Both the position numbers and the translations under genes were made by a program. Under the pieces are notes generated by a model. The model did not search any database and had not been told where the DNA came from. It saw nothing but the letters and a program-made list of their open reading frames with translations. From assembly GCA_003220495.1 (NCBI GenBank), contig QHSP01000062.1, forward strand, positions 1 to 42,584: 42,584 nucleotides of DNA, written 5' to 3'. The stretch is from Candidatus Rokuibacteriota bacterium. Lineage in GTDB: Bacteria > Methylomirabilota > Methylomirabilia > Rokubacteriales > CSP1-6. This document shows, in pieces, positions 18,766 through 32,433 of the stretch (position 1 is its first letter; each line of letters opens with the position of its first letter).

Positions 18766-18793
18766 GCAACCATCCGCGGGGCTTCGGCGACTA
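18766..18793 (+). promoter_or_regulatory. putative ECF-sigma-type autoregulatory promoter
   Basis: GCAACC (18766-18771), a 16-base spacer and CGACTA (18788-18793) resemble the ECF pattern of an AAC-containing -35 and a CGTC-like -10. The expected start site near 18800 gives a leader of about ten bases to the sigma factor ATG at 18810. ECF sigma genes often carry their own target promoter; the match is suggestive only. Confidence 0.35.
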
Positions 18794-18809: not shown

Positions 18810-19991
18810 ATGGACCAGGACGACGGCGCGATCGTCGACCGAGTGCTCGCCGGTGACCGGGATGCCTTCGGGATCCTGATCGACCGGCATCGCGGGGGCG
18901 CGACACGCTTCGCGTTGCGCATCCTCCGCGGGCGCGCCGACGCCGAAGACGTGGTGCAGGAGGCGTGGCTCCACGCGTTCCTCGAGCTCGCAGAGCTCCG
19001 GGCGCGCGACCGCTTCGTCGCCTGGCTGCTCGGCATCGTCATGAACCTCGCAAAAACCCGGCTGCGCGCCCGGCGGGAAACGCCGGTCGAGGACTGGGCC
19101 GGTGGGCGGGCGATCCGCGAATTCGTGTGGATGGACGCCGAGCCGACGCCCGAGGCCCGACAGGAAGCACATGAGCTGCACGACCGCATCTGGAGCGCGC
19201 TTGGCGCGTTGCCGCAGGAGCAGCAGGAGACCGTACAGCTGCATTACGTGGATGGATTGCGTGTGTGGGAGATCGCCGCGCTCGTCGGCGTGCCTGCCGG
19301 CACGGTGAAGGCGCGACTGCATCGGGCGCGCGGCCGACTCCGGCGGACGCTGGCCGCGGAGCTGGGCGTCCCGCTCCACGCTGGTGGACGCCGTCAGGAG
19401 GAGCAGATGATTCCGGTCACGGTCGACGACTTGATCTTTCGTGTCCCGAAGGAAGGCGAAATTCGGTATCTCCAGGTCCCCGAATGGCGGCCGGCCAACG
19501 TCGGCCCGCTGCGCGTCATTCTCCTCAAGGAGCGTGAGGGGCAGCGCGCGCTGCCGATCTGGGTCGGCGCCGTCGAAGGCGACGCCATCGCGCTGGCGCT
19601 GGCGGGCATTGGGACGCCGCGGCCGATGTCGCTCTCGCTGATGTACCGGGTGCTCGGCGAGGCGGACATCACGATCGAGCGCGTCGTGGTCACCGCGCTG
19701 CGCGACAACATCTTCTACGCAACCCTGACCCTGAAGATCGGCGGCAAGGCCCACGAGATCGACGCCCGGCCCAGTGATGCGATCACCCTGGCGCTGTACG
19801 CGGGCGCGCCCGTGTTCGTCACGCCCGCGATGCTCGAGCTGCCGACCGTCGTGCATGCGCCGGACGCGCTGCCCGCGCTGGAGATCCACACCGAGCGGGC
19901 GCGGATCGAGAAGGACCGCCCGGTGGAGGACCCGCCGATGGAGTGGCGCAGCTTCCGCTCGTTGCCGGACCCGCGAACCGCGCCGCGCTGA
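18810..19991 (+). CDS. ECF sigma factor fused to a bifunctional nuclease (DUF151) domain
   Basis: One uninterrupted 393-residue frame carries two normally separate proteins. Residues about 7-90 are sigma-70 region 2 (AFGILIDRHRGG, DAEDVVQEAWLHAF) and about 125-185 are region 4 (LGALPQEQQETVQLHYVDGL, then the helix-turn-helix WEIAALVGVPAGTVKARLHR). Residues about 200-345 are a bifunctional nuclease domain (PIWVGAVEGDAIALAL at 249-264, ARPSDAITLALYAGAPVFV at 319-337), known in other proteins for DNase/RNase activity. The linker contains an in-frame ATG (19407, Met200) behind AGGAGGAG, so a free nuclease domain may also be made. The start at 18810 follows GAGGG at only two bases. No anti-sigma gene is beside it; the nuclease domain occupies that place. 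Confidence 0.85.
   Translation: MDQDDGAIVDRVLAGDRDAFGILIDRHRGGATRFALRILRGRADAEDVVQEAWLHAFLELAELRARDRFVAWLLGIVMNLAKTRLRARRETPVEDWAGGRAIREFVWMDAEPTPEARQEAHELHDRIWSALGALPQEQQETVQLHYVDGLRVWEIAALVGVPAGTVKARLHRARGRLRRTLAAELGVPLHAGGRRQEEQMIPVTVDDLIFRVPKEGEIRYLQVPEWRPANVGPLRVILLKEREGQRALPIWVGAVEGDAIALALAGIGTPRPMSLSLMYRVLGEADITIERVVVTALRDNIFYATLTLKIGGKAHEIDARPSDAITLALYAGAPVFVTPAMLELPTVVHAPDALPALEIHTERARIEKDRPVEDPPMEWRSFRSLPDPRTAPR
19396..19409 (+). promoter_or_regulatory. internal ribosome binding site and ATG for a free nuclease domain
   Basis: AGGAGGAG (19396-19403) lies with ideal spacing before an in-frame ATG at 19407, exactly at the border between the sigma and DUF151 domains. The remnant looks like the junction of two formerly overlapping genes, or a dual-start gene that makes both the fusion and a 194-residue nuclease. 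Confidence 0.5.
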
Positions 19992-31956: not shown

Positions 31957-32433
31957 CTACCCCGCCGCGTGCAGAATCTTCCCGCCGGCCTCGACCGACT
32001 TGGCGTCGATCAGGATCACTGCGAGCACGCACGGCGCCGTTCCGTTGTTGACCCAGTTGTGGATCGTGCCCCGCTGCACCATCACGTCACCGGCCTTGAG
32101 ATGGACGCGCGTGTCGTCCAGCTCCATGTCGATCTCGCCGGAGATGATCACGATGTAGTCGATCGAGTCGGTCCGATGGTTGCGCGCCGCGAGCCCAGGC
32201 GCGAACTCGATGATGCGGAAGATCGTCCCCTTCGCGAGCGTCGTGCCGACCTTGCGCAGGCCCTCGTCGGCGGCGCCGTCGTTGTTGACCGGGAACCCCT
32301 CGGTCGTCCAGACGTTGCACACCGTCGCGCCGGGCCGGCCCGACGTGACGTTCTTCGAGACCTCGTCGATCTTCACGATCGCGCGACCGTTCGCATCGTG
32401 GCCCGTGATCACCCGCCGCACCTGCAGTGCCAT
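31957..32433 (-). CDS. cupin-domain protein
   Basis: The 158-residue single-domain cupin has the metal-site regions ARNHRTDSIDYIVIISGEIDM and VHLKAGDVMVQRGTIHNW (two to three His plus Glu in the usual layout). AGGAGG is eight bases before the ATG. It is the presumed first gene of the molybdenum hydroxylase operon and could be a small dioxygenase, isomerase or ligand sensor. The 53-bp repeat copy B lies 21 bases upstream of its ATG. Confidence 0.88.
   Translation of the reverse strand: MALQVRRVITGHDANGRAIVKIDEVSKNVTSGRPGATVCNVWTTEGFPVNNDGAADEGLRKVGTTLAKGTIFRIIEFAPGLAARNHRTDSIDYIVIISGEIDMELDDTRVHLKAGDVMVQRGTIHNWVNNGTAPCVLAVILIDAKSVEAGGKILHAAG

Follow-up and report, generated by a model that had tools for sequence, protein, structure and literature searches.

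An ECF sigma factor joined in one reading frame to a BFN/DUF151 domain with a degenerate active site in Rokubacteria

The fused gene

The window, a stretch of 42,584 nucleotides of contig QHSP01000062.1 from a Candidatus Rokuibacteriota bacterium, carries a gene in which an ECF sigma factor runs on into a BFN/DUF151 domain (Table 1). No stop codon interrupts the frame. All three Pfam matches, Sigma70_r2, Sigma70_r4_2 and BFN_dom, exceeded the curated cut-offs; the last of these covered positions 1 to 105 of the 112 of the profile with 109.8 bits against a cut-off of 27. Families of region 1.1 or region 3 were absent among the Pfam matches of the protein. The DAED motif of region 2.2, which functions in binding of core RNA polymerase (PMC8999054), is found at residue 44 in this protein and in its homologue described below. 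With regions 2 and 4, without regions 1 and 3 and with DAED, the protein is classed by its sequence features as an ECF (group 4) sigma factor. The C-terminal domain is PF02577, and a Pfam match to the SnoaL family was not detected. The start codon is supported because homology begins precisely there and reading frames further upstream are not conserved. The initial annotation had described a complete DUF151 domain behind sigma regions 2 and 4 without an intervening stop; full length and a single frame were borne out, while completeness does not extend to the putative active site, where His58 is replaced by Leu275.

Table 1. Features of the fused gene and its upstream DNA (positions in the window).
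Feature	Position	Strand	Remarks
Promoter-like element GCAACC-N16-CGACTA, candidate autoregulatory promoter	18766..18793	+	sole conserved part of the upstream DNA
Whole fused gene, ECF sigma factor and BFN/DUF151 domain	18810..19991	+	393 amino acids, single frame
Sigma region 2, residues 23-89, DAED motif at residue 44	18876..19076	+	PF04542 Sigma70_r2, 9.5e-13
Sigma region 4, residues 125-177	19182..19340	+	PF08281 Sigma70_r4_2, E 5.1e-14
Variable linker, residues 186-199, 43% identical	19365..19406	+	ends in conserved RRQEE; its DNA is the AGGAGG Shine-Dalgarno-like site
Internal ATG, Met200, possible second translation start	19407..19409	+	stand-alone BFN proteins have their initiator Met at the aligned position
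BFN/DUF151 domain (BFN_dom), residues 237-343	19518..19838	+	PF02577, E 8.5e-32
Degenerate motif PRPMSLSL, residues 270-277, replacing PRP(L/M)THDL	19617..19640	+	L275 at the putative catalytic His58 position
DARPSDA motif kept, residues 318-324	19761..19781	+	D323 corresponds to Asp115 of TM0160

Sequence and fold searches yielded TM0160 as PDB relative of the C-terminal half and SigW/RpoE as relatives of the N-terminal half. The same proteins were the top matches of the AlphaFold2 model in Foldseek, where the BFN part reached a TM-score of 0.79-0.82, depending on the target, to TM0160 (1sj5/1vjl). In the model the sigma domains were mostly confident with block means mostly of 82-95, and those of the BFN core were mostly 78-92. 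The pLDDT was low at residues 192-196 and 208-215. Linker segments below 50 and a pTM of 0.49 suggest a flexible link between two halves that would have no fixed arrangement; the AlphaFold2 model displays no regulatory contact of the tail with the sigma domains.

The genes adjoining the fusion code for an aminotransferase, a ring-hydroxylating dioxygenase, an MmgE/PrpD protein and an acyl-CoA dehydrogenase. No anti-sigma family was present among the neighbors at this locus or at that of the homologue, which consist of metabolic or transport genes and, in the homologue, one gene without a Pfam match. The proposal that the nuclease domain stands in the place normally taken by an anti-sigma gene agrees with the surroundings of both loci. 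Neither homologue contains a cysteine or the HxxxCxxC zinc anti-sigma motif (ZAS type), and no membrane helix was found in the fusion protein, which argues against metal sensing of the CorE kind or signalling from the membrane.

Occurrence

A scan of GTDB genomes revealed a second full-length fusion in JACPCW010000031.1 (L008 = G083:C6), a Rokuibacteriota MAG from an independent assembly. The homologue (L008:5001-6179) is 73% identical across residues 1-393 and free of stops. It belongs to a second species of Rokubacteria in another genus, and its gene surroundings are unrelated to those in the window. Between the two fusions the sigma part had a dN/dS of 0.16 and the BFN part one of 0.30, and the value for the linker region 186-235 was 0.36; in this comparison of one homologue pair both halves are under purifying selection. 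An intact homologue in another genus together with selection on both halves rules out an assembly frameshift or a chance long frame. Hence the two-domain architecture proposed from the window recurs with an intact frame in a related assembly, and neither a relative with a stop codon separating the domains nor an assembly frameshift, which would have spoken against it, was seen. Because two homologues are known, all arguments from conservation refer to this one pair.

The fusion occurred in only two of 388 genomes sampled across the domain Bacteria, 95 of which belong to the phylum, with thin sampling outside it. In four further phyla, each represented by few genomes, the count was 0 of 24. Ordinary BFN genes numbered two in nearly all members of the phylum searched and one or three in some, and the genome of the window has two of them in addition to the fusion. 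An ECF HMM was run over 93 loci, of which about 80 surround BFN genes, and apart from the fusion no BFN gene had an ECF gene in its vicinity. Accordingly, a separate pair of sigma and BFN genes that might represent the ancestral state was not seen among the roughly 80 other BFN loci. A plasmid or viral origin was discarded, as a full-length match was absent from plasmids and IMG/VR.

A survey of the DUF151 domain reports it either by itself or in combination with HCR and/or UVR domains (PMC7249048), and at least 26 ECF groups possess N- or C-terminal extensions (PMC8999054). A BFN/DUF151 extension of an ECF sigma factor was not found in the papers searched, for which the review PMC8999054 supplied the list of ECF extensions.

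Several other ECF and BFN proteins were recorded in passing. Another stop-free extension of an ECF sigma factor is present in the same genome (L005, G000:C120:73939-74490) and in a related genus (L041, G011:C15:15232-15801). The added part combines a hydrophobic helix, LGPLLVLILALLLTLALEAVAHAQ, with roughly 110 residues of a secreted-type domain, and an acyl-CoA carboxylase-like gene is next downstream. The L005 frame breaks near its end (KSGAVSF followed by a stop); the G011 copy reads on. The second ordinary BFN gene of the genome (L002, G000:C100:182518-182847) is flanked by an MFS transporter and an AAA ATPase, and its product has a signal-peptide-like N-terminus, MNTSVRIGVIGLLIVAVLGVPERADV, and is possibly exported. 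BFN proteins with signal-peptide-like starts and longer C-terminal parts were also seen in G142 (L074), G188 (L076), G326 (L078) and G126 (L083). These C-terminal parts look PDZ-type (e.g. AEGVLV), which would be a further multidomain use of the BFN domain.

Active site of the BFN domain

For TM0160 a putative catalytic triad of Thr57, His58 and Asp115 is cited in PMC7249048. When residues were counted along TM0160, these positions fell on S274, L275 and D323 of the fusion protein. Among stand-alone BFN domains the His was conserved in 57 of 57, the Thr in 56 and the following Asp in 55, while in both fusions THD is changed to SLS, so that only the Asp (D323) of the putative triad is retained. 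In addition, the Arg that follows DARPSDA in 57 of 57 stand-alone domains is Tyr or His in the fusions. In a tree of BFN domains the fused pair formed one long, strongly supported branch with 2.28 changes per column, as expected if the domain had changed its role. Close kinship with a particular BFN lineage was dismissed; the branch has no resolved neighbor.

Because the putative catalytic His and the invariant Arg are lost in both homologues, the fused BFN domain is probably a pseudo-nuclease that serves as a regulatory or sensor tail in cis. Since the triad itself is putative, we infer the loss of activity, and with the conserved Asp still in place some residual nuclease activity is conceivable.

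Junction and upstream DNA

Apart from RRQEE the linker around the internal start is variable. In both species the DNA ahead of Met200 reads CAGGAGGAGC(A/G)GATG, which places AGGAGG 5 bases 5' of the ATG in both homologues. In about 440 kb of the genome of the window, AGGAGG at such a spacing preceded 15 out of 1586 ATGs that are internal and in frame. Predicted anti-SD pairing was -10.3 at the internal ATG compared to -6.4 and -7.0 at the gene start. Stand-alone BFN proteins of the phylum have N-termini similar to M(F/W/L)VEMKVRGLALD or M(L/F)IKMTVRGIALD, and at the equivalent place the fusion has M200-I-(P/E)-V-T-(V/I)-D-D. At the other end, the C-terminal residues of the fusion, MEWRSFRSLPDPRT, resemble the usual BFN end EWLENLKPEDF. 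Because the BFN part keeps a ribosome site of its own and an initiator-type Met in both species, the simplest history is probably that a BFN gene lay behind a sigma gene and the two became one when the intervening stop codon was lost. Retention of a ribosome-binding site and start codon also means that a free BFN product may be made from 19407.

In the upstream DNA the last 46 bases before the ATG were identical at 36 positions, i.e. above the 52% expected from fourfold sites (p ~3e-4), and farther from the gene the DNA of the two species is unrelated. The conserved bases include GCAACCAT and GCGACTATAGGGC, the spacing of which we take to be like that of ECF -35 and -10 elements. Conservation of this promoter-like element suggests autoregulation, the gene being activated by the sigma factor that it encodes. 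A genome-wide regulon defined by the motif with up to one mismatch was rejected, as the matches in both genomes did not exceed the reversed-pattern control. An exact 12-base match, GCAACCAT-N14-CGACTA, is located in the window at 32156-32183 (-) within a cupin coding sequence (31957-32433, -) and was judged a coincidence.

Discussion

With moderate confidence we favor the view that the protein is an ECF sigma factor with a covalent regulatory tail, namely a BFN (DUF151) domain, probably no longer active as a nuclease. The tail, held by a flexible linker and probably dimeric as TM0160, would use its former active-site pocket to bind a ligand or partner, be it a nucleic acid, a nucleotide or another protein. 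Binding would either permit or block the docking of regions 2 and 4 to RNA polymerase and so replace an anti-sigma factor. The fused gene, probably a product of stop-codon loss, would be activated by its own sigma factor through the promoter-like element, and a free BFN fragment initiated at its own ribosome site may modulate the full-length protein. In its most elaborate form, a two-product, self-regulated sigma system with a pseudo-nuclease as ligand or nucleic-acid switch in cis instead of an anti-sigma factor and, in addition, free switch domain made from the internal start, the proposal is tentative, and we rate it as doubtful. The initial annotation had suggested a nuclease as built-in controller or effector of the sigma factor. 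Of these, the built-in controller is the likeliest role, while the change of THD to SLS and the lost Arg do not favor a working nuclease.

An effector that still cleaves, its target being for example nucleic acid in the vicinity of the promoter or a transcript produced with this sigma factor, is unlikely in our judgement. The fold is kept, the full-length domain lies above the Pfam cut-off, and D323 with DARPSDA is retained; yet the changes of the putative catalytic His to Leu and of the adjacent Asp to Ser, and of the otherwise invariant Arg to Tyr or His, are common to both homologues. Somewhat less unlikely is that the gene in effect specifies two products, the sigma frame having run into a BFN gene with the tail being merely tolerated and functional BFN coming mainly from 19407. 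The AGGAGG at the internal ATG of both species, with its stronger anti-SD pairing than at the gene start, and a BFN part that is a complete unit from native N-terminus to C-terminal tail are in line with this explanation. On the other hand, without a stop the tail is present on every translated sigma factor, the frame has stayed open through about 27% protein divergence between two genera, and a free BFN protein would likewise be without the catalytic His.

A tail that senses no signal but acts chiefly in dimerization or DNA binding, and thereby alters which promoters the sigma factor selects, appears quite improbable. TM0160 and Rv1829 dimerize via the BFN domain, and DNA binding and transcriptional repression have been reported for plant BBD proteins (PMC7249048), but no sequence feature of the fusion singles out such a role.

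The BFN domain is ancient and widespread in bacteria, archaea and plants, and its cellular function is poorly understood. Its natural joining to a sigma factor, along with erosion of the active site, ties the domain to the control of transcription and suggests that the BFN pocket can bind a regulatory signal. As the protein is small, Cys-free, self-contained and without a membrane helix, the idea is amenable to testing in a laboratory host.

ECF41 and the other ECF factors with a SnoaL extension (SigJ, Ecf41Bli, ECF56 SigG1) resemble the fusion in that sigma regions 2 and 4 are followed by a soluble C-terminal domain of enzyme-like ancestry. They do not require an anti-sigma factor, and likewise none is found beside the fusion. 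In ECF41 the tail modulates the sigma factor, and other ECF groups use C-terminal extensions in a like manner (PMC8999054). The tail of the fusion differs in being a BFN/DUF151 domain, the fold of which is unrelated to SnoaL. With TM0160 (1vjl, 1sj5) and the plant BBD bifunctional nucleases it shares the fold, the profile and DARPSDA with the conserved Asp, and their native N- and C-terminal boundaries are recognizable in it; unlike them, it lacks the putative catalytic His58 and the THD motif and is joined to a sigma factor. CorE-type sigma factors (ECF238) have a sensor tail in cis as proposed here, yet their tails sense metals through Cys, whereas the fusion protein is Cys-free. We place the fusion among ECF factors with regulatory extensions in cis rather than among nucleases, and its BFN domain represents a type of extension that was absent from the papers searched.
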